Positions 1,016 to 25,469 are shown, counted from the first letter of the stretch. The stretch is 64,000 nucleotides of DNA from Sporomusa acidovorans (GCF_900101845.1 NZ_FNAM01000013.1:62001-126000), one strand, 5' to 3'. The notes: a model not told the origin generated them from the sequence alone. A program made the numbers and translations.

Positions 1016-1771
1016 TTAAACCTCAACTTGGCGAAATTCCTGATAAATCTCTTTCCTTATCTGCTGAAAAACCGTATCAGAACGATTTCTTGGCCGTGGA
1101 AGATCTATCGTAAATTCTTTTTTTATCGTTCCGGGACGTTCTGACATTACAATAACCCGGTCTCCCATATATACAGCTTCCTCAATGTCGTGAGTGACCA
1201 TAATCATTGTGGTTTTCTCTTGCTCCCAAATATCCAGAACCTCTTGCTGCAGCTTTAAGCGAGTTAGCGCATCTAAAGCGCCAAAAGGTTCGTCTAATAG
1301 TAAAATTTCCGGCCGGTTAACCAAAGCACGGGCAATCGCGACTCTTTGCGACATACCTCCGGATAGCTGCCCGGGATATGCGTTTTTAAAACGCTCAAGC
1401 CCCACAAGCTTAAGGTGATCAATAATAAGTTTGTTCTTTTCTTCTTTCGATCCCTTTTGCAGTGCAAACTCCATATTTTCCCATACCGTTAGCCAGGGCA
1501 ATAAGCGGTGTTCCTGAAAGACAATCCCCCGGTCGAGACCCGGACCGGTAATTTTGGTTTTTCCAATGCTGACTGTGCCACTGTATTCCCTGTCAAGCCC
1601 GCCGATAATACGCAGCAAGGTACTCTTACCGCAGCCGCTGGCGCCAACAATACAGAGAAATTCATTCCGGGATACATTGAGAGATATTCCATTTAGCGCC
1701 AGCACTTCGCTATTTTGTTTTTTATATATCTTAGTCAAATTATGTATGGTTACATGATTGCTATCTCTCAT
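1016..1771 (-). CDS. ABC transporter ATP-binding protein, SsuB/TauB/NrtD-like
   Basis: This is the ATPase of a nitrate/sulfonate/taurine-type importer acting on the inner face of the cytoplasmic membrane. The 251-residue protein has Walker A GASGCGKST, signature LSGGMSQR, Walker B ILLLDEP and the H-loop histidine in MVTHDIEEAV. It overlaps the permease gene by four bases (start inside the permease stop), so the two are translationally coupled. It is the last gene of a substrate-binding protein, permease, ATPase operon read from about 3657 down. The family moves sulfonates, taurine, nitrate, thiamine precursors and other small anions; nothing here fixes the substrate. Its regulon partners suggest a role in the same pathway as the arsS and Trs genes (inference). 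Confidence 0.92.
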   Translation of the reverse strand: MRDSNHVTIHNLTKIYKKQNSEVLALNGISLNVSRNEFLCIVGASGCGKSTLLRIIGGLDREYSGTVSIGKTKITGPGLDRGIVFQEHRLLPWLTVWENMEFALQKGSKEEKNKLIIDHLKLVGLERFKNAYPGQLSGGMSQRVAIARALVNRPEILLLDEPFGALDALTRLKLQQEVLDIWEQEKTTMIMVTHDIEEAVYMGDRVIVMSERPGTIKKEFTIDLPRPRNRSDTVFQQIRKEIYQEFRQVEV

Positions 1772-2577
1772 ACCCCGGTAAATGACTCCTTCCAGCGGAT
1801 AATTTTCTTTTCTATGACACGCAATAGACTATCCATAATTTTGCCGACTACACCAATGGCCAGCATGCCTACCAAAACCCTGTCGGTTTGGGCTAATGCC
1901 CGGGCATCTGTTAACATATAGCCGATGCCTTTCATCCCGGCAGACAATTCCGCCGCTACCACACACATCCAGGCATAGCCAAGGCCGACGCGAAGTCCGG
2001 AAATAATAAAAGGAAGAGCACCGGGGATAACCACTTTCGTAATAAACTTACGTCTGGGTACTTCCAGCACCTGGGACAATTCCACAAATTTATGATCTGT
2101 CTGCCGAATGCCATCTAAGACATTGATAAAAATCGGGAAAAATGCGCCGATGACAATGATAAAGATTTTTGATCCTTCCTCAATCCCAAACCAGAGGATG
2201 GCTAAAGGCAGCCAGGCTATGGGGGGAATAGGCCGCAACAGTTGAATCAAGCCGTCCATCAATTCAAACATAAGGGGAAAAATACCCAGCCCCAAGCCTA
2301 ACCCTACTCCTAACAGCGCAGCTAAGAAAAATCCTTCCACTACCCGAATCATACTTGTTCCCAGATGAGTGACCAATTCTCCGGTAGAAAGCATAGCAAC
2401 AAAAGCGTCAAATACCTGGGCCGGAGATGGCAGTAAGATCGGTTTTACCATGCCGCTGACAGTAATGCCGTGCCATATGGCGAGCAAAATACAGGGTAAT
2501 AAAATCCGTTTCCACTGCTGAAAGCCGGTAGTTATGCCGAGCTTGTACACTTTCGCTATCTTTAATACCAGTTCCAT
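1768..2577 (-). CDS. ABC transporter permease, SsuC/TauC-like
   Basis: This is the integral membrane subunit of the importer, of the BPD_transp_1 family (269 residues). Several hydrophobic helices are evident, and the cytoplasmic coupling loop contains the EAA-like segment around the VIPGALPFIISGLRVGLGYA region. The length is normal for SsuC. It lies between the binding-protein gene (56 bases upstream) and the ATPase gene (four-base overlap). A truncated permease of the same family is found at 11850-12059, showing that this transporter class was once more numerous in the block. Confidence 0.92.
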   Translation of the reverse strand: MELVLKIAKVYKLGITTGFQQWKRILLPCILLAIWHGITVSGMVKPILLPSPAQVFDAFVAMLSTGELVTHLGTSMIRVVEGFFLAALLGVGLGLGLGIFPLMFELMDGLIQLLRPIPPIAWLPLAILWFGIEEGSKIFIIVIGAFFPIFINVLDGIRQTDHKFVELSQVLEVPRRKFITKVVIPGALPFIISGLRVGLGYAWMCVVAAELSAGMKGIGYMLTDARALAQTDRVLVGMLAIGVVGKIMDSLLRVIEKKIIRWKESFTGV

Positions 2578-2632
2578 CCTTTACATCTCCTTGCCGAGTC
2601 CCAACATATTTTATACTCGCATCAGTATCATC

Positions 2633-3610
2633 TTATTTTCTAAGAATAAAGGACTGAACATCTACCGGATTTTTAATCAAACCGTTTTTCCGCATAAACT
2701 CTTCTGTATCTTTCATATCAGCTACAAATTTATCCGTAACTTTTCCCTCATAATTGAATTTGCCAATAATTTTTGTTAACTGCGCTTGAGGCATTTTTAT
2801 ATCTTCCATCAACAATTTGATACATTCATCCGGGTTTTGTTGCAAATACTCATTTCCTCGCTGGAATGCCCGCAATACGGCATCTACCGCCTCCGGATTC
2901 TTATCAAGCAACTCCCCGTTCGCCATCAATACGGCGTAACCTTCATAGATGCCGGTCCCGTCAGCGATAATCTTGATTTCGCCGGCTTCTTCCATGCGGG
3001 TGATCAAAGGATCCCACATAACGCCGGCGGCGACATCACCGCGCAGCAGCGCTGTAGAGAGATCATCCATAGACATATGAACAAATTGGATATCATTCAT
3101 GGTCATACCATTTTGCTCCAACAGCAGCGACAATAGTTTCTGTCCATACGCGCCTTTTGTCGTAGCTACTTTCTTCCCTTTTAAATCAGTCACTTTAACA
3201 ATATCTGAATCTTTTTTCGCAACCATCGCCAACGCCTTCGGTGCTGCGGAAGCAACGGAAACAATACGGTAGTTCGTGCCGGCAGCGCGGCCCACAAAAG
3301 CAGGGAAATCGCCCATTACGCCCATGTCCAAATGTCCGGCGGCAAAAGCTTCGCTCACCATGGGTCCCAGGCTAAAAGGCTGCCACTTCAGCTTAAACCC
3401 GACCTTTTGCAATTCTTCATCAATAAACCCTTTCTTTTTTGCCACCCACATATGAGCATAATGAGGCAATGGCACAACACCGACGCGAATCTCTTTTAAG
3501 GCGGACGCATCATTCTTGGGTTGGGCTGCCGGAGTGCTTGTACAGCCACTGGCTGCTAAAACAGCCGACAACAAAATAAACAGCACCGCCAATAATTTCC
3601 ACTTACGCAT
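2633..3610 (-). CDS. ABC transporter substrate-binding lipoprotein, SsuA/NrtA-like
   Basis: This is the extracytoplasmic binding protein of the importer (325 residues). A signal peptide with lipobox LAASGC ends near residue 23, followed by a short Ala/Pro linker and a NMT1/SsuA-like fold (segments around VGVVPLPHYAHMWVAKKKG and a central TDLKGKKVATTKGAYG hinge). A ribosome binding site AGAGGTG sits nine bases before the ATG. It is the first gene of its operon, about 47 bases downstream of a predicted start site in promoter/operator A. Only one cysteine besides the lipobox is present, in contrast to the Cys-rich paralogue at 21994-22989. Substrate unknown. Confidence 0.9.
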   Translation of the reverse strand: MRKWKLLAVLFILLSAVLAASGCTSTPAAQPKNDASALKEIRVGVVPLPHYAHMWVAKKKGFIDEELQKVGFKLKWQPFSLGPMVSEAFAAGHLDMGVMGDFPAFVGRAAGTNYRIVSVASAAPKALAMVAKKDSDIVKVTDLKGKKVATTKGAYGQKLLSLLLEQNGMTMNDIQFVHMSMDDLSTALLRGDVAAGVMWDPLITRMEEAGEIKIIADGTGIYEGYAVLMANGELLDKNPEAVDAVLRAFQRGNEYLQQNPDECIKLLMEDIKMPQAQLTKIIGKFNYEGKVTDKFVADMKDTEEFMRKNGLIKNPVDVQSFILRK

Positions 3611-3656: not shown

Positions 3657-3715
3657 TATATCCATTATATAATAAAAAAGCCAACGATTGCAAGTTAAAA
3701 TAATCATGCAATCGT
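3657..3715 (-). promoter_or_regulatory. Promoter/operator A (TTGCAA dyad)
   Basis: On the minus strand the -35 box TTGCAA (3693-3688) is separated by 18 bases from a perfect TATAAT (3669-3664). The -35 lies in a perfect nine-base inverted repeat (3684-3692 with 3707-3715), equivalent to two TTGCAA-like half-sites 12 bases apart. It drives the importer operon 3610-1016. The same design recurs at B, C, D, E, F and G. Confidence 0.8.
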
Positions 3716-3728
3716 CCGCTCTTCTCGC

Positions 3729-4568
3729 CTAATCAACTGTAGGTTTCTGCTCAGGAAGCGCGAATTTAAATTCCGGCTCCTTTTCTCGCATTTTTTTGGC
3801 TTCTTCCCCTGTCATCACTTGAAACCAAATACCTTCTACCCTGCGTCCGGAAAATGTCGGTCCAAACCGGACAAATATCGCCTTGTCCCAATCATAAATT
3901 TCCTGAAGCGAAGGCTCTAAAACCCGGAGTTTTAACTGCCCATAAGAATATCTGGTGTGCTCCAGAGACAATAGCTTCATAAGTTCGGGAATCGAATATT
4001 CCGTAATCCCACTATCCTTCGAAGACCAAATAATATCAAAAACAGCTAATGTATGTTTGCCTCTGTATTGAATTCCTTTGATTAACTGACACTCAAAATC
4101 ATCGGGATCCATGGCTGCAAACAAATGCAAAATTTTATCCGTGAATTGAAAAGTTATTCTGTTTTCCGTATATTCGATACTTTGAAACCACTGCGTCCTG
4201 ATTAATCTGCGACTGTTTTTTTCGTACAGCCAAACCCCTTTTGTGGATACCTTTTCCAGTTCATTAACTAATGAAGCATACAGTCGATTGGCGTCGAGAT
4301 CGCACACTTCTAAAAAATCACGAATTGACATCCCGCATGCTGATTGGATGGCGTCACTTGTTGGGGACACCTGCAGTTGAGAGATAGCCGCAGTTAACAT
4401 TTTTTGCTGTAGCTCGGTAAGAGGGTCACGGCGTCCGATTACATTTTCCACGCTGATCGATCTATTAGGATTTGTTGTAAGCCCCTCAGGCTGAAGCGCC
4501 GCAGATACAAATTGTTCACTATCAAAATCATCTGGAACTTTTCTTAAAACAATATCCAATTTTTCCAC
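3729..4568 (-). CDS. Rep_3 (RepB)-like winged-helix protein, candidate regulator 1
   Basis: This 279-residue protein resembles plasmid replication initiators of the Rep_3 family. The N-terminal half has the LTELQQKMLTAAISQL helix and a strand pair ending in ITFQFTDKILHLF. The C-terminal winged-helix half has YSIPELMKLLSLEHTRYSYG and LKLRVLEPSLQEIYD. It is not accompanied by any other plasmid gene. The start is taken as GTG at 4568, because the predicted promoter B would start transcription at about 4573, giving a nearly leaderless mRNA. A paralogue of exactly equal length (8643-9482) shares most of the C-terminal half. Both genes carry the TTGCAA dyad upstream. Rep_3 proteins bind iterons as monomers and inverted repeats as dimers (family knowledge). 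I infer it is a transcription factor of the local regulon, but a leftover plasmid initiator is an alternative. Confidence 0.72.
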   Translation of the reverse strand: MEKLDIVLRKVPDDFDSEQFVSAALQPEGLTTNPNRSISVENVIGRRDPLTELQQKMLTAAISQLQVSPTSDAIQSACGMSIRDFLEVCDLDANRLYASLVNELEKVSTKGVWLYEKNSRRLIRTQWFQSIEYTENRITFQFTDKILHLFAAMDPDDFECQLIKGIQYRGKHTLAVFDIIWSSKDSGITEYSIPELMKLLSLEHTRYSYGQLKLRVLEPSLQEIYDWDKAIFVRFGPTFSGRRVEGIWFQVMTGEEAKKMREKEPEFKFALPEQKPTVD

Positions 4569-4572
4569 CTCA

Positions 4573-4630
4573 TAGCACTATTATATAGTGGCGATATATC
4601 GATTGCAAGTCACATTCATGCTCGCAATCG
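4573..4630 (-). promoter_or_regulatory. Promoter/operator B for rep-like gene 1
   Basis: On the minus strand TTGCAA (4608-4603), 17 bases, TATAAT (4585-4580). The dyad 4600-4630 pairs CGATTGC with GCAATCG; the half-site spacing is 13 rather than 12 bases. No leader terminator or second operator is present. The predicted start site is only about five bases from the GTG start codon. Confidence 0.75.
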
Positions 4631-4755
4631 ACTATTTCCAGTTGCAAAGGAAATTACAGAAATTACACACTATGAGGTTTAGAGCGCGTATTGTTCCTTT
4701 CACCGGCACCTGCGCCATGCAACCCATTTCGGATAAATACGACATTGAAATACTT

Positions 4756-4926
4756 CTAGTAGGGCCATAAAAATTCCTTCCAGTGTGGCAAGCCACTATT
4801 TTCAGCGACTGCTCTTACAGCAGTACGCTTATTTGCTTCTATTACCTTTGCAAATTTCTGCGTGGCTTCTGTCTTGATTTGTCTCTGCTTTTTTGTAAAT
4901 GCCAGACATCTATTCAAAACACTCAT
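4756..4926 (-). CDS. Small protein of unknown function downstream of rhodanese
   Basis: A short gene of about 56 codons starts 19 bases after the rhodanese stop and is preceded by GGAGGAG. The ATG at 4926 is directly adjacent to that site; the in-frame TTG three codons later has better spacing and may be the real start. The product is basic and helical (FTKKQRQIKTEATQKFAK region), without cysteines beyond one and without a signal peptide. I do not recognise a family. It would be the last gene of the degenerate arsS-like/rhodanese operon. Confidence 0.45.
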   Translation of the reverse strand: MSVLNRCLAFTKKQRQIKTEATQKFAKVIEANKRTAVRAVAENSGLPHWKEFLWPY

Positions 4927-4945
4927 CTCCTCCACTTCAGGCAGC

Positions 4946-5758
4946 CTATTGCCCATCAATCTCAGCCGGCAGTTCCCCTCGTTGACTCCATTCGATCCAC
5001 GACCCGGCATAGTTTTTCACGTTTTTGTAGCCGAGAACCTCACTCAGCACATAAGCAGTATGCGTAGCACGGACTCCTGCCTGGCAATAGGTAATGACCG
5101 TCTTATCCGGAGTAATTCCCTTGGTTTTGAATATTTTTCGCAACTCGTCGACATTTTTGAGCGTTTTATCCGGATTCAGCACATCCCCCCAGTATAGCCA
5201 AACGGCTCCGGGAATTCGTCCCTTCCGCACTGCGCCCGGGGCCTGTATGCTGCCCGAGAATTCGTCCCATTCCCTGACATCCAAAATAATTACCTTAGGA
5301 TCAGGCTCTTTTACGGCATTCCAAACTTCTTCCGTTGTCGCCAATTTACCGGTATCTATCCTTGTTAACTTAAAATTGCCGGGGGCAACTTTCAAAACCG
5401 CGTTAGTCAATTTATACCCTAAAGCCTGCCAAGCTTCCAAACCGCCGTCCAACATCTTCGCGTTATGATAACCGAAAATATCGAGCAGCCACCAAAAGTG
5501 AGCCACATAAGCAGGGCCATGCTTATCAGAATCAGCATAAAGCACAATAGTATCCTGATCACTAATCCCCAGTTTGCTCAGCAAGGCAGCAAAATGCTCC
5601 GGCGTTGGGACCGGACCCTTTTGATCCATATAGTCTTGCCACCAGGCATTTACGGCCCCGGGAAGGTGCTCTTTCTGATAGCGTTCCGGTGGTCTTACGT
5701 CAATTATTTTGACAGTTTCGTTCTTGATTAAGTCCTGCAAATTTCCCGGGGTTATCAA
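4946..5758 (-). CDS. Rhodanese, thiosulfate sulfurtransferase (two-domain)
   Basis: Two tandem rhodanese domains: residues about 10-120 are the inactive first domain and about 135-262 the catalytic domain with active-site loop CQAGVRATH (Cys225). This family moves a sulfane sulfur from thiosulfate to a thiol acceptor such as cyanide or dithiols. The annotated start is a TTG at 5758, ten bases after the upstream stop. The frame is open a further 22 codons upstream and contains ATANAYAEAAG, which looks like the end of an export signal, but it has no normal start codon (an ATA preceded by TGAGGAAAT is present). So either the protein is cytoplasmic and coupled to the upstream gene, or its signal peptide was lost when the two genes were joined. 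A sulfurtransferase beside a lipoyl/radical SAM block may supply sulfur (inference). Confidence 0.85.
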   Translation of the reverse strand: MITPGNLQDLIKNETVKIIDVRPPERYQKEHLPGAVNAWWQDYMDQKGPVPTPEHFAALLSKLGISDQDTIVLYADSDKHGPAYVAHFWWLLDIFGYHNAKMLDGGLEAWQALGYKLTNAVLKVAPGNFKLTRIDTGKLATTEEVWNAVKEPDPKVIILDVREWDEFSGSIQAPGAVRKGRIPGAVWLYWGDVLNPDKTLKNVDELRKIFKTKGITPDKTVITYCQAGVRATHTAYVLSEVLGYKNVKNYAGSWIEWSQRGELPAEIDGQ

Positions 5759-5768
5759 GGAAGCTTTA

Positions 5769-6860
5769 TTAACAACCCCTTGATTGCCGGCAGCTTCCGC
5801 ATAGGCGTTCGCAGTAGCTTTTATATTTCCTCAGATTAACAGTTGATTGTAGTACGTTATATTCATCAAACTGCCTGCAGTTTACAGGAGCAACTTTCTT
5901 ATTTTCCGGGTTCATCCAGGAGTAAGAAGAACTCCCCCTACAAACTGCACCTGCAGTGCAGCCGAAGCAATGATCGTCGGTCTCAATAGACAACCCCAAC
6001 AAATCTTCAGGTCTTATTTTTCCAATGGGTTTAAAGGTAACGGCTGGCAATCTTACCATCTGATTAAAACAACAAGCAAACAATCTGCCTCGCCAATCAA
6101 CATTGATTTGTTCCCGGCACATTACTTTATCCAATTTAGCAACGTCAAAATTGCGGATAAGCAAATTCATATAGCTATTAAGCAAACCTTTTTGAGTTAA
6201 AAATGCCCGAAATCGGTCGATAGGCATATTAGGTATGGCAAAAAAATCATCAAAAATAATTCCGTAATCGTTGCCCAGGTTTTCGCGATATACAGCTTCC
6301 AAATTACCCTGAACAGGCAGAAACGCACCTAGAGGTCTATACACCAAATTAAGTTTCAAATTCGATTTTTTTGTACCATAACCGATACTGTTCAGTTGTT
6401 TCAGGACTTCAATTTTTCGGAAAAACCTTTGTCGGTCGGTTAAGTTAGTTTCCTTATAAAACGGCATGGATGCAATAATTTCGACGTTATTCTTAGCAAG
6501 AAATTCCGGTAAATGCCGATATTCCGAATTCTCAATAATGTCTAGATTGACACGCAGCATAATCTGTTTTACGGATTTTATTTGCCGAAGGATTTTGATA
6601 AGAATTGGCAGATTGGGATTTAATGTTGACGACTCACCGAAAATATCCACGGCTATTTTTCCGGCATTATCAACAAATTTTAAACAGTCTTGCATAACCG
6701 CGAGTCCCATCATCTTCATTGGCACACCACCATGACAGCGACGAAAATGCAGATTGTCCAAATACCCCATGTTTACCTGCAGACACCGAATTGCATCCCG
6801 TATCAGTGCTTTCCCAGTCTTGTCAACATACTGCCGAAATCTGTTCTGCACTTCCGTCAC
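5769..6860 (-). CDS. ArsS-like radical SAM homologue with a lost Fe-S motif
   Basis: This 363-residue protein aligns over its length with the intact ArsS at 9768-10718 and with the radical SAM/Cys-rich domain family. The cluster-binding CX3CX2C is replaced: the intact VCNLTCKHCH becomes LDNLHFRRCH, so the first Cys is Asp35, the second Phe39 and only Cys42 remains. The following GGSPEMN-type motif is also altered. By contrast the C-terminal Cys-rich region is kept and extended (CFGCTAGAVC, then CERLCGSC and a terminal Cys). It therefore cannot hold a normal SAM-cleaving [4Fe-4S] cluster and is either a pseudo-enzyme that binds substrate or partner, or a decaying gene. The GTG start at 6860 follows AAGGA closely; GTG at 6851 has better spacing. 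It heads an operon with the rhodanese; no TTGCAA dyad was seen upstream. Confidence 0.75.
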   Translation of the reverse strand: MTEVQNRFRQYVDKTGKALIRDAIRCLQVNMGYLDNLHFRRCHGGVPMKMMGLAVMQDCLKFVDNAGKIAVDIFGESSTLNPNLPILIKILRQIKSVKQIMLRVNLDIIENSEYRHLPEFLAKNNVEIIASMPFYKETNLTDRQRFFRKIEVLKQLNSIGYGTKKSNLKLNLVYRPLGAFLPVQGNLEAVYRENLGNDYGIIFDDFFAIPNMPIDRFRAFLTQKGLLNSYMNLLIRNFDVAKLDKVMCREQINVDWRGRLFACCFNQMVRLPAVTFKPIGKIRPEDLLGLSIETDDHCFGCTAGAVCRGSSSYSWMNPENKKVAPVNCRQFDEYNVLQSTVNLRKYKSYCERLCGSCRQSRGC

Positions 6861-7012
6861 TTCCTTAAAAACTAAGTATTCCTACCTAGGACTTTTCAAC
6901 AATTTCATCAATCTCGTCAATTCGACAAGTAATTGTGGCGTGGGTGACCAAGGCCAGGCATAAGTACGCCGCCTATCCTCTTAAAGGATGAGCACATACC
7001 GGTTCAAGTCAA

Positions 7013-8341
7013 TTAAAAAAAGAAATGCAGCTGGGTCTGATAAAACTTAGTCTTTGATTTGTCGCCGGGAACGGTGGCTTTAATATCATCATAATAAAAA
7101 TCCCATTTAATGTTTTTAGCCGGGACATACGCAAACCCTATTTCATAACCTTTCGACCCTGAGGCGGCATAGGTCCAGTCAGCGACACCGCTAAAACTAT
7201 CCCAAATTACCGAGGGATCGGCTTTGAGATAGTGGGCCCAGGCACCATAGCTGCCGGGTTTATTCAGATCGGCGCCCTTATAGCTGACTTGTAGCATATA
7301 GCCTTTATTGTAGTCACTGGCATCCGATTTGGCATAAGCGCCAGTGAAAATATAGTCATGCGCAAAGGGAACTACATACCCGGCTTCCCAACGCTTGGTA
7401 GATACATGAATGTCGTTGTTCTTTGTTTGAAAATATGTAGCCTTCAATGTGCCGGGGCCTACCGGAATGCTGACGTCGCCGCCGGTGACAATTGTGCTGC
7501 CTTCGGATGTACTGTCCCAAAATTCGTCGCTAGTAGCCAGGAAAGACTGCTTTTTATCTGATGAAAAAATCTTGCCGCTGCGGAAATCGCGGCCATAAAC
7601 CAGGTTTACCTTAACGGTGTTGCCATAGCTTATTTTTGCCCCTTGCAAGGTGGAAGCGCCATTAATAAATCCAGTGGCCAGTGTATAGTCTTGCCGGCCC
7701 AAAGTGACGTTGAAACAACCGATTGGACCTTGAACATTGGCAACCCGAATATAGCTGCCATAGTTTGAAGTGCTTTCATCGTTGCCAAGGTAACCGGCAT
7801 AGGCGCCTTGGTTGGTTTTGTTGTCGTTGCGCAGTTCAAACACATACTTCCAGTCGTCATTGATTTTGCCGTTCACATCAAAGGCCAAAATCTGTTTGTG
7901 CTGAATCCAGGTGCCTTGTTTAACGCCTGCCGGATTGGTTATATCCCCGTTGCGGTAGCGGTCTTTTATTTCACCGGAAAACTGCGGCAGTTTGTCAACT
8001 TTCGTTTTTACGCTATCAACTTTAACCCCGAGATTTTGCAGTTCACCGGAAAACTCTGTCGATAATTTTTTAATAAGTTCTTTTTGCTGCCCATCAGCCT
8101 TTTCGGCCTTTTCCATTGCTTTACCCACAATCATCGCCATTTCATAACGGGTCATAATGTGGTCGCCCCGGAAGGTTCCATCGCCATAACCATCAACGAT
8201 GCCAGCTTTCGCCAGACTGGCCACAGCATCGTAGGCCCAGTGGTTCGCCGGCACATCGGCAAACGGTCTAGCGGCAAAAGTGGTTCCCGCAATTCCCAGC
8301 GCAATGCTCAGGGTCAGTGCCATTGCTATTTTTTTATTCAT
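7013..8341 (-). CDS. S-layer-homology outer membrane porin (OmpM-like)
   Basis: This is a 442-residue outer membrane protein typical of Negativicutes. The start is the ATG at 8341, with AGGAGG seven bases upstream; an in-frame start 8 codons earlier lacks such a site. A signal peptide ending in TTFAA is followed by one SLH domain (FADVPANHWAYDAVASLAKAGIVDG over two lines of about 45 residues), which anchors the protein to modified peptidoglycan. A coiled-coil linker (about residues 75-115) and a beta-barrel domain follow, ending with aromatic residues (QLHFFF), the usual C-terminal insertion signal. It appears monocistronic. It is the clearest marker of the diderm Firmicute origin. Confidence 0.92.
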   Translation of the reverse strand: MNKKIAMALTLSIALGIAGTTFAARPFADVPANHWAYDAVASLAKAGIVDGYGDGTFRGDHIMTRYEMAMIVGKAMEKAEKADGQQKELIKKLSTEFSGELQNLGVKVDSVKTKVDKLPQFSGEIKDRYRNGDITNPAGVKQGTWIQHKQILAFDVNGKINDDWKYVFELRNDNKTNQGAYAGYLGNDESTSNYGSYIRVANVQGPIGCFNVTLGRQDYTLATGFINGASTLQGAKISYGNTVKVNLVYGRDFRSGKIFSSDKKQSFLATSDEFWDSTSEGSTIVTGGDVSIPVGPGTLKATYFQTKNNDIHVSTKRWEAGYVVPFAHDYIFTGAYAKSDASDYNKGYMLQVSYKGADLNKPGSYGAWAHYLKADPSVIWDSFSGVADWTYAASGSKGYEIGFAYVPAKNIKWDFYYDDIKATVPGDKSKTKFYQTQLHFFF

Positions 8342-8405
8342 AGTCTGCCTCCTATTTTGTTGCATTCTAGCTGGTTTCTTTTATCATAAGATAAATTATA
8401 AGAGC

Positions 8406-8538
8406 TATATACAACGTGTTAAAGATTTGTGCAGGCGGGTGGTGTGTTGGCAAAAGCGGAAGTCAAACGCCAGTGGTGGAGCGTTGTCAATGCACCGCCC
8501 ACCTGCGCCTGCAGTATTCTTTAAGGCGGAATATATAG
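8406..8538 (+). repeat. 133-bp intergenic repeat, copy 1
   Basis: These 133 bases are identical, in inverted orientation, to 61103-61235. The unit can fold on itself: GCAGGCG near one end pairs with CGCCTGC near the other, with further GC-rich pairing inside. Both copies sit in noncoding DNA beside a gene end or gene fragment. There is no transposase in it. It fits a REP- or MITE-like element. Confidence 0.85.
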
Positions 8539-8642
8539 TATATAAGCCTTATCTAAATGCCGGTAGCAAAACCTTTCTTAAAAGTCGTTGTACCTCCTCT
8601 CATATGTTTTTCGGTTCGGCTATCAGCACAAGATCCTAGGAA

Positions 8643-9482
8643 TCAAGCCATAGGCTGTTCGATCGGTTTTTCCTTTGGAGAGGCAAACTTAAATTTTGGC
8701 TCTTTTTCTCGCAATTTCCGGGCTTCTTCCCCGGTCGTTACTTTAAACCATACTTCTTCCACTCTTCGCCCTGAGAAGGTTGGCCCAAACTGAACGAATA
8801 TGGAATCATCGATATCATAAATTTCTTGCAGTGAAGGTTCCAGAACCCGAAGCTTAAGCTGTCCATAGGAATAGCGCGTATGCTCCAAAGATAAAAGTCT
8901 CATTAATTCAGAAATGCTGTACTCAGTCACTCCTTTCGCATTCGAAGAGCTAATGATTTCAAAAATGGCTCGCGTATATTTCCCTCTATATTGAATTCCT
9001 TTGATTAACAGCCTATCGACATCGTTAGGTTCTATAGCGGCGACCAGCTCCAGAATTTTACTAGTAAATTGAAATGTAATTTCTCCGTCTGCGTACCCGA
9101 TCGTTTGAAACCATTGTGTCCGAATTAACCTTTTATGTCTTTTTTCATATAGCCATATCCCTTTGGAAGCTACCTTTTCAATTTCACCTAGCAGCTTATG
9201 ATGCATGTTATCTTGTTTTATATTACAGAGTTCCAAAAATTGATTGATATGGATTTTGCATACCGTCCGCGCAGCGCCAAAATCGCCGGAAGAATAAATA
9301 ACGGAAATGGCTGTACTCAATATTTTCTGCTGAAGTTGTGTAAGGGAATCACTGTACCCGATTGCATCGCCAATTCTTATCAAACGCCTGAACCTGGCGG
9401 CGCGTCCCTCGGGATGAACAACAGCAGATGCCAAGTTTTCAACATCGATGTCCGCTTTAACCCGCCTCAAAAAAATTGCCAC
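8643..9482 (-). CDS. Rep_3 (RepB)-like winged-helix protein, candidate regulator 2
   Basis: A paralogue of the protein at 3729-4568, also 279 residues when started at the GTG at 9482, which follows GGTGAGGAAA. The frame is open 70 codons further upstream, but that stretch is the promoter/operator region and has no protein-like character. Shared blocks include LTQLQQKILSTAIS, LIRTQWFQTI, LLSLEHTRYSYGQLKLRV and TFSGRRVE. The N-terminal third is more diverged, which may mean different partner or operator specificity. The gene is preceded by two operators and a leader terminator and is divergent from arsS. Divergent control of an enzyme gene and a regulator from one operator-rich region is typical of autoregulated regulators (inference). 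Alternative: vestige of an integrated Rep_3 plasmid. Confidence 0.72.
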   Translation of the reverse strand: MAIFLRRVKADIDVENLASAVVHPEGRAARFRRLIRIGDAIGYSDSLTQLQQKILSTAISVIYSSGDFGAARTVCKIHINQFLELCNIKQDNMHHKLLGEIEKVASKGIWLYEKRHKRLIRTQWFQTIGYADGEITFQFTSKILELVAAIEPNDVDRLLIKGIQYRGKYTRAIFEIISSSNAKGVTEYSISELMRLLSLEHTRYSYGQLKLRVLEPSLQEIYDIDDSIFVQFGPTFSGRRVEEVWFKVTTGEEARKLREKEPKFKFASPKEKPIEQPMA

Positions 9483-9512: not shown

Positions 9513-9548
9513 TATCAATTGCAGATATAAATTTGTTTGCAATCGATA
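9513..9548 (-). promoter_or_regulatory. Operator C' (second dyad in the rep2 leader)
   Basis: Half-sites TTGCAG (9519-9524) and TTGCAA (9537-9542) separated by 12 bases, in an imperfect 12-base inverted repeat. It lies between the leader hairpin and the rep2 start; centre-to-centre distance to operator C is 117 bp. A weak TATATT follows but no good -35 at the right distance. Confidence 0.65.
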
Positions 9549-9562
9549 AGCCAAAAATATAG

Positions 9563-9590
9563 GGCAAAACTGCAATACTGCAGTCCTGCC
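9563..9590 (-). terminator. Leader hairpin C (attenuator-like)
   Basis: GGCAAAACTGC pairs with GCAGTCCTGCC (9 of 11 bases). On the minus strand it is followed by TATATTTTT, a weaker U-tract than in copies E and F. It lies between promoter C and rep2. Confidence 0.5.
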
Positions 9591-9605
9591 AAGTGTTTTA
9601 GACCA

Positions 9606-9666
9606 CATTGCTATTATATAACAGCGCGCATTCAATTGCAAGTATAAAGCAACTTGCAATTGAATG
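9606..9666 (-). promoter_or_regulatory. Promoter/operator C for rep-like gene 2
   Basis: On the minus strand TTGCAA (9641-9636), 17 bases, TATAAT (9618-9613). The dyad 9629-9666 is a perfect 15-base inverted repeat with an 8-base centre, i.e. TTGCAA half-sites 12 bases apart. This is the best-conserved operator in the window. Confidence 0.8.
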
Positions 9667-9681
9667 TTTTTATCTTTATTA

Positions 9682-9735
9682 TTGCAAATCAAAAATATCT
9701 TGCAATTAATAAAAAAATATTATATCATTGGAAAT
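9682..9735 (+). promoter_or_regulatory. Promoter/operator G for arsS (plus strand)
   Basis: Half-sites TTGCAA at 9682-9687 and 9700-9705, again 12 bases apart. The right half-site doubles as -35, with 17 bases to TATCAT (9723-9728). It reads toward arsS, about 33 bases from the predicted start site to the ATG at 9768. It lies 46 bp from the centre of operator C, so the divergent genes share an operator cluster. Confidence 0.7.
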
Positions 9736-9767: not shown

Positions 9768-10718
9768 ATGAAAACATTTTGTGAAAGCATCAAGGAAACG
9801 GGAGAAAAATTAGTCAGAAACAAAATTGATATTGTGCAAGTGAATATCGGCTATGTTTGCAATTTGACATGCAAGCATTGCCACGTGCAGGCAGGTCCTA
9901 ACCGCACAGAACAAATGAGTGCCGAAACCATGCAAGCGTGTCTTAAGTTTATCGGCGAGGCAAAAGCAGCTACTATCGATATTACCGGGGGTTCGCCAGA
10001 GATGAATCCTCATCTGCCGCTGCTGATCGAAGAACTACGTAAAATCAGTACGGTAAAACGCATTTTGGTCAGAACTAATATGACCCTTTTAACCACAGAT
10101 AAGTATAAGCATTTGCTTGATTTGTTTAAAGCGAATAAAATTGAACTTGTCGGCTCATTACCTTGCTATGGCGAAGAAAATGTCAATGCCCAAAGAGGCG
10201 ATGGCGTATTTAACAGCAATATCAGTGTATTGAAATTATTGAACAGTATTGGCTATGGAAAAGAAAAAACCGGACTCATCCTTGATCTTGTGTATAATCC
10301 GGGCGGCGCCTTCTTACCGGGGCCGCAAGCGGTATTGCAAGCCGCCTATAAGGAGCAGCTAAAAAACAATTATGGGATTGAATTTAATCATCTTTTCACT
10401 ATCACCAATGCACCATGCGGCCGTTTTAAGGAAGATCTGAAAAAAAGCGGCGAATTTGATGCCTATATGAATGTCCTCGTTGATAATTTTAACAGGGACA
10501 ACCTTAAGAAAGTTATGTGCGTATCACAAGTCAACATCGGCTGGAATGGTGCCGTTTATGACTGTGATTTCAACCAGGCGCTTGGCATGCGCATTGGCTC
10601 ACCGAAAACAATTGCCGATTTCACGCCTGATGAGTTACTGTGTGAAGTATTGGCAGACGATCATTGCTATTGTTGTACTGCCGGGGCAGGCAGCAGTTGC
10701 CAAGGCAGTCTGGATTAA
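9768..10718 (+). CDS. arsS: Arsenosugar-type radical SAM protein ArsS
   Basis: This 316-residue protein has the radical SAM motif CX3CX2C (Cys31, Cys35, Cys38 in VCNLTCKHCH), the glycine-rich GGSPEMN motif and the C-terminal Cys-rich signature DDHCYCCTAGAGSSC of the radical SAM/Cys-rich (ArsS) family. In cyanobacteria ArsS acts after ArsM, adding a 5'-deoxyadenosyl group to a dimethylated arsenical to give the arsenosugar precursor (family knowledge). The family also contains members of unknown substrate. Ribosome binding site GGGGG lies seven bases before the ATG. It is the only plus-strand gene of the block, divergent from rep-like gene 2, and followed by a terminator. The arsM at 27528-28511 under the same kind of operator is its expected partner. 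Confidence 0.85.
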   Translation: MKTFCESIKETGEKLVRNKIDIVQVNIGYVCNLTCKHCHVQAGPNRTEQMSAETMQACLKFIGEAKAATIDITGGSPEMNPHLPLLIEELRKISTVKRILVRTNMTLLTTDKYKHLLDLFKANKIELVGSLPCYGEENVNAQRGDGVFNSNISVLKLLNSIGYGKEKTGLILDLVYNPGGAFLPGPQAVLQAAYKEQLKNNYGIEFNHLFTITNAPCGRFKEDLKKSGEFDAYMNVLVDNFNRDNLKKVMCVSQVNIGWNGAVYDCDFNQALGMRIGSPKTIADFTPDELLCEVLADDHCYCCTAGAGSSCQGSLD

Positions 10719-18254: not shown

Positions 18255-18848
18255 TTACTCGCTTTCGCAATAAAACGGACATTGTCTGCGCTTGCATTCT
18301 TTATTGCGCGAACTGTGCCGACACTGAATCGTATCACAATCCGCCAAATTAACTCCCAGGTGTTCCCGGCTGAAAGCTGAGGCATATTGCAGCGCTAAAT
18401 ATGTATTGCGTTTGCAGCAGCGCGGCCCGTTTATTTTAGCCATTTCCAGCAGACTTTCAGCCGTACCGAGGTTAACTAGGGACCAGGTCTCCACCGAATA
18501 AGGCGTGGTATCGGTCAGTACACTGGCATAGATACCAATGCCGATTGCCGCACCGCAGGCGCCATACAAACCACAAAATTTTCCCAGCACATTTTGGGAA
18601 CGGCTTTGGGCTTTTTCCAGGAGTTTCGCCAGATCATCGGCTGGCCGCCCCTGTATCCGGCAGGCTGCCGTGAGCAGTACTGCCGGCACCAGATAATGGT
18701 GCTCCTGACAATGCATGTTGAATTCCGAATGTTTCATCAGACTTTCGGCCATCGCCAACGGAGTCTTAACCAAAGATTCCCGGAAATACTGCAGGCATTG
18801 CGCTGTAATATAGCCATATAGATCAAATTTTTTTGACTGTTCTTCCAT
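18255..18848 (-). CDS. DUF5714 protein
   Basis: First gene of the Trs/lipoyl operon. The start is the ATG at 18848, six bases after AAAGGAAG; the open frame further upstream is leader DNA. The 197-residue product has the DUF5714 features: HCQEHHYLVPAVLLTA, GKFCGLYGACGAAIGIGI and NGPRCCKRNTYLAL. It ends with a Cys-rich tail (CDTIQCRHSSRNKECKRRQC) that could bind a metal or Fe-S cluster. Function unknown. Two decayed copies of the same tail are found beside promoter modules E and F (25500-25541 and 28723-28920). Confidence 0.75.
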   Translation of the reverse strand: MEEQSKKFDLYGYITAQCLQYFRESLVKTPLAMAESLMKHSEFNMHCQEHHYLVPAVLLTAACRIQGRPADDLAKLLEKAQSRSQNVLGKFCGLYGACGAAIGIGIYASVLTDTTPYSVETWSLVNLGTAESLLEMAKINGPRCCKRNTYLALQYASAFSREHLGVNLADCDTIQCRHSSRNKECKRRQCPFYCESE

Positions 18849-18903
18849 AAAGAACTTCCTTTCATTTAGTTTTAGACAAAACTTTATCCAATTTACTAAA
18901 ATA

Positions 18904-18935
18904 TCAATTGCTAAATTTTTAAAAATTGCAATTCT
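18904..18935 (-). promoter_or_regulatory. Operator D' (second dyad)
   Basis: Half-sites TTGCTA (18908-18913) and TTGCAA (18926-18931), 12 bases apart, between leader hairpin D and the DUF5714 start. Centre-to-centre distance to operator D is 118 bp. Confidence 0.65.
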
Positions 18936-18945
18936 TAAATCTAAA

Positions 18946-18986
18946 ATATATGGCAAAACTGCCGATGTTACAGTTCTGCCATATAT
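18946..18986 (-). terminator. Leader hairpin D (attenuator-like)
   Basis: An extended stem of about 16 base pairs (ATATATGGCA outer part, AACTG/CAGTT inner part) with one mismatch. On the minus strand the outer arm ends in ATATATTTTAG, a modest U-tract. It lies in the leader between promoter D and the DUF5714 operon. Confidence 0.6.
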
Positions 18987-18995
18987 TTCACACTA

Positions 18996-19056
18996 CTATT
19001 TCAGTATATAGCAGCGCGCTTATAGCTGCAAGTATAAAACAGTTTGCAATTATAAG
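18996..19056 (-). promoter_or_regulatory. Promoter/operator D for the DUF5714-lipoyl-Trs-lplA operon
   Basis: On the minus strand TTGCAG (19031-19026), 17 bases, TATACT (19008-19003). The dyad 19019-19056 pairs CTTATAGCTGCAA with TTGCAATTATAAG, two mismatches, half-sites 12 bases apart. Confidence 0.75.
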
Positions 19057-19116: not shown

Positions 19117-20115
19117 TTATTTACCGGCAAACATGACAGACGGACCCTTAACCACTTTCCACCCGGTTTCTTCAAAGGCATCCCTGCGTTCTGCCACAGT
19201 CGCACCGATGATGGTATCGGCTTTGGTGTCACGCGGATTAGAACCGGATTCGGCCCAGGAAAGGTTGCAGCCGGTTACACCGCCAAGAATAGAATGATCA
19301 CCGGCATGCCAGGGAATTTCATAGCCGAAAAATACGCGGGTTGCCGCCATGCGAAGGGCCTGTGCCAGCTTATCCAGAATGCCCAAACTATTAAGCGGTG
19401 ATGTCGGAATGGGAAGTCGGCGGCCGCAGCCGGTATGAACTGGTTTAATTTCATCACGGAGAAATACGGCTCGGTTTACAATTTCGGTCAGAGGATGTTC
19501 CGGACCGCAAGGTTCAATGCAAGTTCCGACTTTGAGACCATTGCGTTTAGCTGCTAGCATGGTTTCTTGGCGAATCGCCGGATCGATTCCGGTTGTTTCC
19601 CCTTCTCCCATGCGCCATACATGATAAATACCGGCATACCCGGCTTCTTTTAATTGTTTTGCTTCCGCATCGCCAAAATCACCTACATTAGCAACCAGGA
19701 TTGATTCTGGTTTAAGTCTCTTGCGAACTGCCCGGGAAACTTCGAGAAAGAGCTCAAACGGATAGTCCGCTGTAATCATGAGATAGATCGCATTGGCGCC
19801 ATCTGTTTCAAAACGCAAAGCGCGTTCAACAATTTCTGCGGTAGAATAACGCTTTTCTTCAGGAAATACATTGTTGACCGGAGCAAATGAACAAAACTGG
19901 CAATTTTTTGAGCAAGGCCCCGCATTTACACCGACTTGGGCATGGACTTCCGCCATCCCGCCGGAAGATTCCATAGCGATCTTCCGGGCTGCCTGCCAAA
20001 TAGCAAATGCCTCACGGGATTCCGGGTCTTGCTGCAACAAAAGCAGCAGTTCGTCACTGGTGATTTTTGTACCGTCAATCGCTTGATTGAGAATTTGTTC
20101 AACCTCTTGATTCAT
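19117..20115 (-). CDS. Radical SAM protein of the BioB/HydE/LipS-like class
   Basis: The 332-residue protein has CX3CX2C in PCSKNCQFCSF (Cys68, Cys72, Cys75) within a BioB-like TIM barrel (segments RALRFETDGANAIYLM, VGTCIEPCGPEH, PTSPLNSLGILDKLAQAL). Extra cysteines occur after the barrel (GVTGCNLSWAESG). BioB-like enzymes include biotin synthase, HydE, methylornithine synthase and the two-part lipoyl synthases LipS1/LipS2 of archaea and sHdr bacteria. A lipoyl-related sulfur insertion is attractive given the lipoyl protein next door but is not shown. It is the last gene of the second transporter operon. Confidence 0.75.
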   Translation of the reverse strand: MNQEVEQILNQAIDGTKITSDELLLLLQQDPESREAFAIWQAARKIAMESSGGMAEVHAQVGVNAGPCSKNCQFCSFAPVNNVFPEEKRYSTAEIVERALRFETDGANAIYLMITADYPFELFLEVSRAVRKRLKPESILVANVGDFGDAEAKQLKEAGYAGIYHVWRMGEGETTGIDPAIRQETMLAAKRNGLKVGTCIEPCGPEHPLTEIVNRAVFLRDEIKPVHTGCGRRLPIPTSPLNSLGILDKLAQALRMAATRVFFGYEIPWHAGDHSILGGVTGCNLSWAESGSNPRDTKADTIIGATVAERRDAFEETGWKVVKGPSVMFAGK

Positions 20116-20174
20116 ATAGAACCCACCCCATCAAATTTTATAAAAATAGGCCTGTTTTTCAAAAGCAAAAGCAT

Positions 20175-20957
20175 TTAATCTATGCTTACGCCCAGCGCAT
20201 CCAGCATGATTTTTTTGTAGCGAAAAAAGATATCGTCATTTCTGCGGCGCGGCTTGGGGATATCAATAGCAATGATCCTTTGAAATTGTCCGGGATTTGC
20301 CGACATAATAACCACACGGTCTCCAAGATAAATGGCTTCATCAATGTCATGGGTAACAAAAAGCAGCGTCATTTTCCGTTCGTTCCAAATGCGTAAAATC
20401 TCATCCTGCATGCTCATGCGGGTCAAGGCATCAAGCGCGCCCAGCGGTTCATCCAAAAGCAAAGCTTTCGGATGATTTACAAGGGCACGCGCAAGTGCTA
20501 CACGTTGCGCCATCCCGCCGGAAAGTTGATGGGGAAAAGCATTTTTGAACGGAGTCAAGCCCACAAGCTCGATATATTCGTCAACATCGGCGGCATGTTC
20601 TTTAAGAATACCGCGTGCTTCAAGACCGGTAGCGACATTGTGCCATACATCCTTCCACGGAAACAGCGTTGGATTTTGAAAGGCAAAACCGCGTGTAAAA
20701 TGGGGCCCGGTGATACGTTCGCCGTCGATGTACAGTTCGCCGCCGTTTGGGTTTTCGAGTCCCGAAACCAGCCGCAAGAGTGTGGATTTGCCACAGCCGC
20801 TGGGGCCGATGATCGTAATCAATTCACCGGCTTTGATTTCAAGATTGATATTCTGGAGAGCCTTTACTTCGGTGTTTTTTGCGTCAATAAATGTTTTGGA
20901 AACATTGCGGATGGAAATTTCCCCATGTACGCCGGATGCTTGTTTTGCTTCTACCAC
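20175..20957 (-). CDS. ABC transporter ATP-binding protein, SsuB-like (second importer)
   Basis: The 260-residue ATPase has Walker A GPSGCGKST, signature LSGGMAQR, Walker B ALLLDEP and the LFVTHDIDEA switch. The start overlaps the permease stop by seven bases. It pairs with the permease and the Cys-rich binding protein upstream and is 59 bases from the radical SAM gene. It differs clearly from the ATPase at 1016-1771, so the two importers are paralogous rather than a recent copy. Confidence 0.92.
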   Translation of the reverse strand: MVEAKQASGVHGEISIRNVSKTFIDAKNTEVKALQNINLEIKAGELITIIGPSGCGKSTLLRLVSGLENPNGGELYIDGERITGPHFTRGFAFQNPTLFPWKDVWHNVATGLEARGILKEHAADVDEYIELVGLTPFKNAFPHQLSGGMAQRVALARALVNHPKALLLDEPLGALDALTRMSMQDEILRIWNERKMTLLFVTHDIDEAIYLGDRVVIMSANPGQFQRIIAIDIPKPRRRNDDIFFRYKKIMLDALGVSID

Positions 20958-21970
20958 TTTACCGTTCCTTTCTGCCAGATCAAAACCCGGTCACGCACTT
21001 TGAACAGGAGTGATGTGCAGCCGGAACACATGAACGCGCTGATGCCAAGGGCTGCATAGAGTTTGTAGTATTCAGCCCAGCCTTGCGCCCAGTTAATATA
21101 CCAGCCGAGGCCGGCTTTTACGCCAAGCATTTCGGCGGCAATGAGGGTGGCAAAAGCGCCGCCGAGGCCCATAAACATCCCCACAAATATGGTGGGAGCC
21201 GCACCGGGAAGGGCAATTTTTAAAAGTTGATAGCGCTCATCCGCCCCCAATGTACGGGCAATTTCAAAATAGGATTTATTGATGTTGCAGACACCCGAGC
21301 AGGTCATAACTGTAACCGGGAACCAGACCGATAAGGCAATAAGGAACACGCTGCCGGAAAAGCTGGTCGGAAAAGCCACCAGTATGACAGGAATCCAAGC
21401 GGTAGCCGGGATCGGTCCGATAATGCGAACGACAGGATTCAGCCAATAGCCGAATTTCCGGTACCATCCCATCATTAAGCCACTGGGAATGCCCAGCGCC
21501 ATACCGATGAAGTAACCGAGAACGAGCAGCCGCAGGGAATAGGCAACGCTTTTTAGAAGAACCTTCCAGTCAGTGACATACGCTTCCAAGATCTTTGCCA
21601 GCGACGGAAAAAACGGTAATGGCAGCCAAGCTTCTTTTAACGTAATGATTTCATAGATAAGCGTTAACAGAATGACGACAGTAATAAACAACGAGTAATA
21701 GGAAAGTTTTTCACACCATTTCGGCTTAACATTTGCGCTAATAGCGCAAACTGCGAATACGAGCGTGAGGCAAGAAATGAGCATCGTATAGTAGTCGGCA
21801 TGAACCGGTTGTTGGTTAGGCATTTCCATATGGACGCCCAGTGTGATAACTAGTGCCAAAACCGGCGCCCACAAGGCGCATTGTTTTTTTAAAGTTTGCC
21901 TAGTCCCTGAAGCTAAAAGCTGCTCTGCGAATATGGGCCTTGCTGTAAATTGTTTTTTTAGAGTTTCCAT
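20951..21970 (-). CDS. ABC transporter permease, SsuC-like (second importer)
   Basis: The 339-residue membrane protein is longer than usual SsuC because of an N-terminal extension of about 30 hydrophilic residues and two additional hydrophobic segments (near 33-45 and 62-78). The BPD_transp_1 core starts near residue 130, with the coupling-loop region EIARTLGADERYQLLKIALP and the helix FVGMFMGLGGAFATLIAAEM. It is transcribed between the binding protein and the ATPase. Confidence 0.9.
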   Translation of the reverse strand: METLKKQFTARPIFAEQLLASGTRQTLKKQCALWAPVLALVITLGVHMEMPNQQPVHADYYTMLISCLTLVFAVCAISANVKPKWCEKLSYYSLFITVVILLTLIYEIITLKEAWLPLPFFPSLAKILEAYVTDWKVLLKSVAYSLRLLVLGYFIGMALGIPSGLMMGWYRKFGYWLNPVVRIIGPIPATAWIPVILVAFPTSFSGSVFLIALSVWFPVTVMTCSGVCNINKSYFEIARTLGADERYQLLKIALPGAAPTIFVGMFMGLGGAFATLIAAEMLGVKAGLGWYINWAQGWAEYYKLYAALGISAFMCSGCTSLLFKVRDRVLIWQKGTVKW

Positions 21971-21993
21971 AGCACTTACTCCAAATATAAACT

Positions 21994-22989
21994 TTATTCC
22001 AGAATTTTATAAGATTTTTGAATCAGTTCTTCCGGATTTGTTGCTGCGTCAAATATGCCGGCTTCTTTAAAGATTTTGACATGCCATTTCCAGTCCTTTA
22101 ACCCGCGCGCCGGATCGGAAAACCATTGATATGCTTTGATAAGCTGTGCATTCAGTTCAGGCGAACCGCCGGTGTATTTTTTTTCAACCATCATCTTGGC
22201 AACTTCATCCGGTTGTGTTTTGCATAATTCGCCGCCGGTTTTGAAAAATGCCTGAATGTTTTTCGCCACTTCCGGTTCTTCTCTAACGACTTTGCCGTTA
22301 ACACCTACAAAGCAGCAAGTATAATTTTTGTAGGGAGACATGGTTGTATTGCTCCATATAATTTTTGCTTTACCTTCATTTACAGGAATCTGCGGAAACG
22401 GATCCCATGTGCCAAAGCAATCGATTTCTCCTTTATCCATTGCGGTCTGTAGTTGGGGCGGCGGATAAACCTTCCATTCAACGTCGTTTTTCGGATCAAT
22501 ACCATGCTGTTTAAGTTCATTGCTGATATAAGCCATAAATGGCCCTCCCATGGCGTCTACTCCAACTCTTTTCCCTTTGAGATCAGCGGCACTATTAATG
22601 GGAGAATTAAGCGGAGCACACGCTTGAATACAACCAGTGTGAGCGGAATCGATTAATACAAGATCCATTCCCTGCTCAATTCCTTTGAAGCTACCAGGGG
22701 ACGAAAGAACAGCATCTACTTTACCGGTAGAAAGCATTTCAGCAGTATTTTTTGATCCCATAAGTACGAGTTCAACTTTGATACCAAGTTTCTCTGCAAC
22801 CTTGTTTTCGTAAGCGGCAAAGATGGGCGCTTCACAGGTACCGCCCCAGTACCCAATTTTATAAACCCGTTCCGTTTTCTTGTTTTTGTCTTGGTCTGCG
22901 GCGGTTTTCTGGCTGCTGCCACAGCCAGTCATGACGAAAACTGTCGTTACTATGAATGCGAGCAAAAAAGCAATCAATTTTTTATTCAT
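21994..22989 (-). CDS. Cysteine-rich ABC substrate-binding lipoprotein, SsuA/NrtA-like
   Basis: The 331-residue protein has a lipoprotein signal (lipobox VMTGC) and an SsuA/NMT1-like fold (YKIGYWGGTCEAP start, SAADLKGKRVGVDAMGGPF hinge). Besides the lipobox Cys there are seven cysteines: in GGTCEAP, HTGCIQAC (two), EIDCFGT, YTCCFVG (two) and GELCKT. Some lie in loops that form the ligand cleft in related proteins, so the ligand may bind through thiols or the Cys residues form disulfides. This is unusual compared with the paralogue at 2633-3610, which has one. The ligand could be a soft metalloid compound or a thiol (inference). Confidence 0.88.
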   Translation of the reverse strand: MNKKLIAFLLAFIVTTVFVMTGCGSSQKTAADQDKNKKTERVYKIGYWGGTCEAPIFAAYENKVAEKLGIKVELVLMGSKNTAEMLSTGKVDAVLSSPGSFKGIEQGMDLVLIDSAHTGCIQACAPLNSPINSAADLKGKRVGVDAMGGPFMAYISNELKQHGIDPKNDVEWKVYPPPQLQTAMDKGEIDCFGTWDPFPQIPVNEGKAKIIWSNTTMSPYKNYTCCFVGVNGKVVREEPEVAKNIQAFFKTGGELCKTQPDEVAKMMVEKKYTGGSPELNAQLIKAYQWFSDPARGLKDWKWHVKIFKEAGIFDAATNPEELIQKSYKILE

Positions 22990-25299: not shown

Positions 25300-25326
25300 T
25301 TTTAGGCCTCCCCATATAACAATTTA

Positions 25327-25358
25327 ATAATTGCAAAATAAATTTTATTTGCAATTAT
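25327..25358 (-). promoter_or_regulatory. Operator E' (second dyad)
   Basis: TTGCAA at 25331-25336 and 25349-25354, 12 bases apart, in a perfect ten-base inverted repeat. It lies 28 bases before the DUF4418 start. Centre-to-centre distance to operator E is 113 bp. Confidence 0.72.
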
Positions 25359-25374
25359 CGAAATCAAAAAAATG

Positions 25375-25398
25375 GCAAAACTGCGATTCCAGTTTTGC
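25375..25398 (-). terminator. Leader terminator E
   Basis: Perfect nine-base stem GCAAAACTG/CAGTTTTGC with a six-base loop. On the minus strand it is followed by CCA and seven T, a canonical intrinsic terminator between promoter E and its operon. Confidence 0.8.
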
Positions 25399-25413
25399 GA
25401 TGTGCTTTAAATC

Positions 25414-25469
25414 CAATTCCATTATATAGCAACGTCTTATCGATTGCAAGCATAACTTAAATTGCAATC
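25414..25469 (-). promoter_or_regulatory. Promoter/operator E for the DUF4418-transporter-radical SAM operon
   Basis: On the minus strand TTGCAA (25449-25444), 17 bases, TATAAT (25426-25421). Second half-site TTGCAA at 25462-25467, 12 bases away; the eight-base arms are perfect. Confidence 0.8.

Follow-up and report, generated by a model that had tools for sequence, protein, structure and literature searches.

Two chromosomal proteins of Sporomusa acidovorans, termed RepX1 and RepX2, have the fold of Rep_3 plasmid replication initiators. On the sequence comparisons described below, it is quite probable that RepX is such an initiator turned dedicated chromosomal transcription factor, likely repressing its own gene and an organoarsenical (arsenosugar-type) regulon. 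A specific operator is common to the RepX gene itself and to several putative target promoters. A preliminary description of this DNA had proposed that the Rep_3 fold was reused as the chromosomal regulator of the gene block, a proposal now supported by the fold, the chromosomal conservation, the operators and the lack of iterons. Coordinates refer to the window, the whole 64-kb stretch of DNA that was analysed, which covers positions 62001-126000 of a 126-kb contig in a 6.0-Mb assembly of 126 contigs.

Fold, distribution and ancestry of RepX

The genes for RepX1 (3729..4568) and RepX2 (8643..9482) lie on the − strand, and each encodes 279 residues, the length given in the preliminary description, from a GTG start; the RepX2 open frame reaches further upstream (349 residues counted from a TTG). 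The paralogues share 60% identity over 271 residues in a gap-free alignment, with the C-terminal half closer than the N terminus, in agreement with the conserved C-terminal winged helix and diverged N terminus described earlier. Because RepX orthologues vary between 264 and 296 residues, the shared length of 279 residues is a coincidence.

RepX1 matched the Pfam families PF01051 (Rep3_N, E = 1.1e-11) and PF21205 (Rep3_C, E = 2.3e-7), as did RepX2 (E = 3.4e-12 and 2e-9, respectively), all above the Pfam cut-offs. The notable matches in Pfam and NCBIfam were of the Rep3 type only, with no ArsR-type helix-turn-helix domain. An AlphaFold2 model computed from an alignment of 15 family members (mean pLDDT 80.6, pTM 0.73) contained two winged-helix units (WH1-WH2), and its top match among solved structures was 2z9o, the operator-bound RepE dimer (Z 10.2, rmsd 5.9, 205 residues), alongside pi (2nra; Z 10.0) and iteron-bound RepE54 (1rep; Z 9.8). 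These Z scores differ by less than 1, so the structural match alone does not favour the dimer-operator form, and the high rmsd is probably an effect of domain orientation. By Pfam domains and predicted structure, RepX1 and RepX2 are genuine Rep_3-fold proteins, which bears out the earlier assignment both for the PF01051 profile and for a model closest to the plasmid initiators RepE and pi.

Homologues of RepX, 49-87% identical, were present in 13 of the order's 28 genomes and in Desulfuromonadaceae. Among 398 genomes sampled across the phylum, one had a homologue, namely that of S. acidovorans itself. A named genome collection yielded 13 RepX loci, in Sporomusa species, in Selenomonadales and Bacillota MAGs and in two Desulfuromonadota MAGs. 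The family is narrow and crosses phyla. Three of the loci lie on contigs of chromosomal size (5.22, 5.18 and 4.36 Mb). ArsS (TIGR04167) scored above its cut-off in 15 genomes of the order, 13 of which contain RepX, whereas RepX occurred in none of the 13 ArsS-less genomes (Fisher p 2.8e-6, which overstates the association, as related genomes within an order are not independent samples).

The preliminary description had also suggested a heteromeric or opposing relationship between RepX1 and RepX2. Their 60% identity, with the N-terminal domain the more diverged, would suit such an arrangement, as would the retention of both copies in S. acidovorans and in Sporomusa sp. KB1. However, a single copy is present in 11 of the 13 RepX genomes of the order, a maximum-likelihood tree places the RepX1/RepX2 split as a duplication inside Sporomusa, and S. 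ovata has RepX1 alone with its target operators intact. The suggestion is not supported by these comparisons, and a heteromeric or antagonistic pair is improbable.

Resemblance to plasmid initiators raises the alternative that the RepX genes were left behind by integrated iteron plasmids and encode present or former initiators, with the dyads as origin repeats. The two-winged-helix fold is common to RepX and to the initiators RepE (plasmid F), pi (R6K), RepA (pPS10) and RepM, and RepX is 20-27% identical to plasmid Rep_3 proteins. An ancestral plasmid origin of RepX is not in dispute. When the DNA beside the rep gene was scanned for spaced direct repeats in three or more copies, arrays of 4-9 copies were detected at seven of eight plasmid relatives, the eighth lying at the start of its record, but at none of 18 RepX loci, and no tandem repeats of the iteron type were found within the 64-kb window. 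The half-sites of the dyads are inverted at one spacing rather than directly repeated, and dyads occur at unlinked loci. Orthologues and operators have been kept with metabolic genes across species and phyla, and searches of phages and viral contigs returned no relatives. In the maximum-likelihood tree, RepX forms one side of a branch with 100/100 support, with plasmid Rep_3 proteins opposite and a stem measuring 2.4 changes per site. The plasmid-remnant alternative, which the earlier description had itself raised with iterons becoming operators, is left with no trace of direct repeats and is very improbable.

Neighbouring genes point in the same direction. The absence of plasmid partner genes claimed in the preliminary description was confirmed: par, mob or other plasmid genes were not recognised beside RepX1 or RepX2 in the window, and par or mob genes were not seen at homologous loci. 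The preliminary description had named homologues mainly on plasmids, and apart from these genes, as a refuting outcome; the survey gave the opposite, with chromosomal conservation next to ArsS-type genes and with plasmid Rep_3 proteins as the distant relatives at the 20-27% level given above. RepX thus differs from iteron initiators in having no iterons, no plasmid context, a separate clade and operators at unlinked metabolic genes, although an inverted-repeat operator stands before its gene, as autorepression by an iteron-initiator dimer would require. RctB of Vibrio chromosome 2 is likewise structurally related to RepX (5tbf/5ubf, Z ~6.3) and chromosome-resident, but RctB genuinely initiates replication and has repeat sites of its own, and origin features were not seen for RepX.

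A third, highly divergent Rep3_N-like protein is encoded elsewhere in the S. acidovorans genome (locus L032, 8230-9051, on the 121-kb contig C69), beside a TonB-dependent receptor. None of the other 27 genomes of the order holds a relative, no association with the dyads was seen, and the protein was set aside.

Operator dyads and promoter geometry

At loci selected solely for holding a RepX protein, the dyad ATTGCA-N14-TGCAAT occurred in 25 copies at a spacer of 14, with no more than one copy at any other spacing from 0 to 40; as direct or everted repeats, the same half-sites reached no more than two per spacing. The full site spans 36 bp and holds ~38 bits of information, with outer arms that are 71% complementary. 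Ten dyads scored at least 8 bits on the dyad matrix in the window, compared with 0.0 per shuffled window, which excludes chance. The exact core is present at eight sites across the 6.0-Mb S. acidovorans genome, every one of them in the RepX block, and a reversed-core control gave no match in any of 20 genomes.

In the window, the dyad at 3682..3717 (36.7 bits) contributes one half as the −35 element of a − strand promoter for the first SsuABC-like transporter, with TATAAT 18 bp on. RepX2 is preceded by a pair of dyads, proximal at 9513..9548 (40.7 bits) and distal at 9630..9665 (35.0 bits; −35 TTGCAA with TATAAT 17 bp on, − strand), whereas the RepX1 promoter carries a variant whose spacer is one base longer (4601..4629), followed by TATAAT on the − strand. 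The statement that each RepX gene is preceded by the operator of the block therefore holds, in the case of RepX1 for the variant form. The RepX1 operator is also weak in KB1 and S. ovata (6-7 bits), which, like its longer spacer in S. acidovorans, counts against the regulatory reading of RepX. A further dyad at 9676..9711 (34.3 bits) lies at the ArsS promoter, TTGCAA-17-TATCAT on the + strand. The remaining dyads are paired: proximal and distal sites precede the DUF5714 gene (18902..18937, 25.7 bits; 19020..19055, 19.2 bits), the DUF4418-MacB-LolD genes (25325..25360, 39.9 bits; 25438..25473, 29.0 bits) and ArsM (28558..28593, 39.2 bits; 28672..28707, 34.9 bits), the last two distal sites each having TATAAT 17 bp on (− strand).

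Dyads far from RepX precede ArsM, ArsS, SsuABC and other genes in three genomes; these others include DUF5714, aquaporin, MacB-LolD and molybdopterin oxidoreductase genes, as well as a PHO4 permease gene accompanied by one for an LMW-phosphatase-family (ArsC-like) protein. In genome G004, ArsS follows a 27.5-bit dyad at a distance of 115 bp, with RepX on a different contig. At one Desulfuromonadaceae locus (L041), a 26-bit dyad lies in the interval from RepX to ArsS, with no clear −10 element at 17-18 bp, and no dyad was found with the matrix at another (L040); these two cases also count against the regulatory reading. Exact-core matches in the RepX-less genomes G016 and G018 (only 9-11 bits), and those inside coding sequence in G010 (C58) and G011 (C3, 191 kb), were discounted as chance.

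The dyads could in principle be operators of another regulator, with RepX merely travelling with the cluster, and a MerR-like DNA-binding gene at 28949-29320, of which an orthologue was also seen, would be a candidate. Yet each of five genomes of one genus (g12) has a sole exact dyad, placed directly before the RepX operon, and two genomes with ArsS and no RepX (G003 and G005) have nothing scoring 5 bits or more on the dyad matrix at their ArsS loci. No further obvious regulator gene is common to the loci, and control by a regulator other than RepX is decidedly improbable.

The promoter-side TTGCAA of each dyad was taken as a −35 element, and a −10 match was defined as at least five of six positions. 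Such matches numbered 25 at a spacing of 17 and 12 at a spacing of 18, with 0-5 at each other spacing, and the −10 element was a perfect TATAAT at most dyads. The dyad centre derived from this 17-18-bp spacing is −41.5 or −42.5. As the −35 element lies inside the operator and the −10 element is mostly a perfect TATAAT, repression is preferred, and RepX is reasonably likely to be a repressor rather than an activator. The same dyad centre is also the classical class-II activator position, which makes activation the chief rival. On that account, RepX would have the same DNA target and regulon and would recruit polymerase from −41.5 to promoters with mediocre −35 elements. TTGCAA agrees with the −35 consensus at only four of six positions, and positive feedback would equally fit those genomes whose single site lies before the RepX operon itself. 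Weighing against activation, a 36-bp site extending to about −24 would mask the whole −35 element together with a large part of the spacer. The −10 element is already perfect at most sites, and Rep_3 dimers at the inverted repeats of their own operators are, in the classical description, autorepressors (RepE; PMC13028717). Class-II activation is therefore on the unlikely side, and repression by RepX remains the preferred reading.

Leader cassettes and putative target genes

Twin dyads 111-118 bp apart were found in eight units from three genomes of the genus, in addition to the pair at 18902/19020. The distal dyad was followed by TATAAT 17 bp on in all eight units, but a −10 match at 17-18 bp from the proximal dyad was present in only two. 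Between the paired dyads lies a leader of ~55 nt that ends in a hairpin and a T-run, as in the ArsM leader, which ends GCAAAACTGGAATAGCAGTTTTGC-CC-TTTTTTT. An RNA covariance model built from the leaders (R1) gave strong scores at dyad units only. In the window, these promoter, short RNA and hairpin units lie on the − strand before RepX2 (9555..9622, 72.6 bits; terminator-like hairpin 9563-9590), DUF5714 (18944..19012, 50.1 bits), DUF4418-MacB-LolD (25366..25430, 84 bits) and ArsM (28599..28664, 81.3 bits; terminator-like hairpin 28608-28631). The leaders matched no Rfam family above chance. The copies are similar in sequence, their hairpin showed no covariation beyond that of shuffles, and the hairpin of the G017 leader is unrelated to that of the other units; without covariation support for the hairpin, the claim is restricted to the arrangement of the cassette. 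Transcripts from the distal promoter should end early unless read through, which would make the cassette an attenuator, a source of short RNA, or both. DNA looping via the paired dyads was considered and rejected, as the observed spacings spread over two-thirds of a helical turn and the phasing is unconvincing.

ArsS and ArsM, both above their family cut-offs, are among the putative targets, each with dyads upstream. The ArsS radical SAM gene (9768..10718, +) scored 411 bits against a TIGR04167 cut-off of 300, and the arsenosugar-type ArsM gene (27528-28511) scored 450.5 bits against an NF038099 cut-off of 400; the latter is followed by a MIP aquaporin gene (26692-27381), the two making up a − strand unit at 26692..28511. 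Also on the − strand, the first SsuABC-like ABC transporter (1016..3610; SsuA 2633-3610, permease 1768-2577, ATPase 1016-1771) has a single dyad upstream. Genes for a MacB/FtsX-type permease and a LolD-type ATPase (23007..24877, −) lie behind that for the DUF4418 protein, and a MacB/LolD-type orthologue with a dyad is present at locus L066. The DUF5714/MbdU-like gene (18255..18956, −), whose orthologue at locus L063 belongs to PF18978, probably has its mechanically called start too far upstream. A BioB-like CxxxCxxC protein (19117-20115) and a second SsuABC-like transporter complete the putative targets (19117..22989, −); the BioB-like protein had no Pfam match at 1e-5 and no NCBIfam match at 1e-20. 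Orthologues of these last genes come straight after RepX in other genomes, where copies of the BioB-like protein are 44-56% identical. At most RepX loci, RepX is followed by ArsS, the BioB-like protein and one or two SsuABC-like transporters. Matches below the cut-off to TIGR04282 ('arsenosugar biosynthesis glycosyltransferase') occur near RepX in S. malonica and one Desulfuromonadaceae MAG.

An ArsS paralogue at 5769-6860 (−) scored 270.7 bits, under the cut-off of 300, and is without the radical-SAM CxxxCxxC motif (GYLDNLHFRRCHGG, compared with GYVCNLTCKHCHVQ in the intact ArsS). Among the matches listed, an ArsS match lacking this motif occurred in the S. acidovorans genome only, and the protein is possibly a pseudo-enzyme. 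Outside the dyad block, an ArsM-type arsenite methyltransferase is fused to an ArsN2-type acetyltransferase domain (55774-57102, −), and a truncated amino-acid permease fragment (55409-55897, +) overlaps the end of that gene. In Sporomusa sp. KB1 (G013), a PHO4-type permease and an LMW-phosphatase (ArsC-like) protein are encoded behind a twin-dyad leader (L065, 4270-7022), which suggests that arsenate uptake and reduction are regulated and supply organoarsenical synthesis.

Proposed regulation and its implications

In the proposed mechanism, a RepX dimer would bind the 36-bp dyad, whose half-sites are separated by roughly two helical turns, with the promoter-side half-dyad doubling as the −35 element (TTGCAA) of a sigma-70-type promoter and the −10 element 17-18 bp on. 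With the −35 element within the dyad, occupancy by RepX and by RNA polymerase should be mutually exclusive, and RepX would thereby most likely repress its own gene or operon and the organoarsenical regulon. This regulon would comprise ArsS, ArsM, the SsuABC-like transporters, the BioB-like protein, the aquaporin and DUF5714, and in one species also the PHO4 permease with its ArsC-like partner. At some targets, a second dyad and a terminator-bearing leader would be added, and an arsenic-related signal would relieve the repression.

The nature of such a signal is constrained by the RepX family alignment, which contains no fully conserved cysteine; the best-conserved one (FLxxC) is lost in two members. 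Direct sensing of As(III) by RepX cysteines was rejected as unlikely on this basis, whether by direct coordination or by simple chelation. Rep_3 proteins act as dimers on inverted repeats and as monomers on iterons, with chaperone-driven conversion between the two (PMC13028717), although the same paper argues that monomers contribute, beside dimers, to autorepression. By analogy, this biology offers RepX a ready-made switch. A kept monomer-dimer switch might itself be the sensor, with dimers repressing the arsenic regulon, monomerisation by chaperones or ligand under arsenic stress releasing it, and the leader cassettes copied as a second layer; we regard this extension as speculative and rather unlikely.

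RepX would work like the ArsR/SmtB repressors in being autoregulated, in being the first gene of an arsenic operon and in having an operator placed over the promoter. It differs from them in belonging to an unrelated family, in having no fully conserved cysteine and in its 36-bp dyad, and its putative targets are methylation and arsenosugar-type genes, whereas those of ArsR/SmtB are efflux genes.

The Rep_3 fold and its autorepressor logic are already known. In the literature consulted, chiefly open papers, no chromosomal Rep_3 transcription factor was found, nor any regulator for ArsS in Sporomusa or for anaerobic organoarsenical metabolism. A Rep_3 protein dedicated to metabolic regulation through a genome-wide set of operators appears to be undescribed. 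Rep_3 proteins are automatically annotated as 'replication initiation protein', and if RepX is a transcription factor, this label would be wrong for the whole clade. Anaerobic organoarsenical (arsenosugar-type) metabolism would then have a regulator with a precisely defined operator and a list of targets, and RepX, with its long and highly specific operator, would be a DNA-binding protein well suited to experiments. More broadly, plasmid initiators would be a source of new chromosomal regulators.
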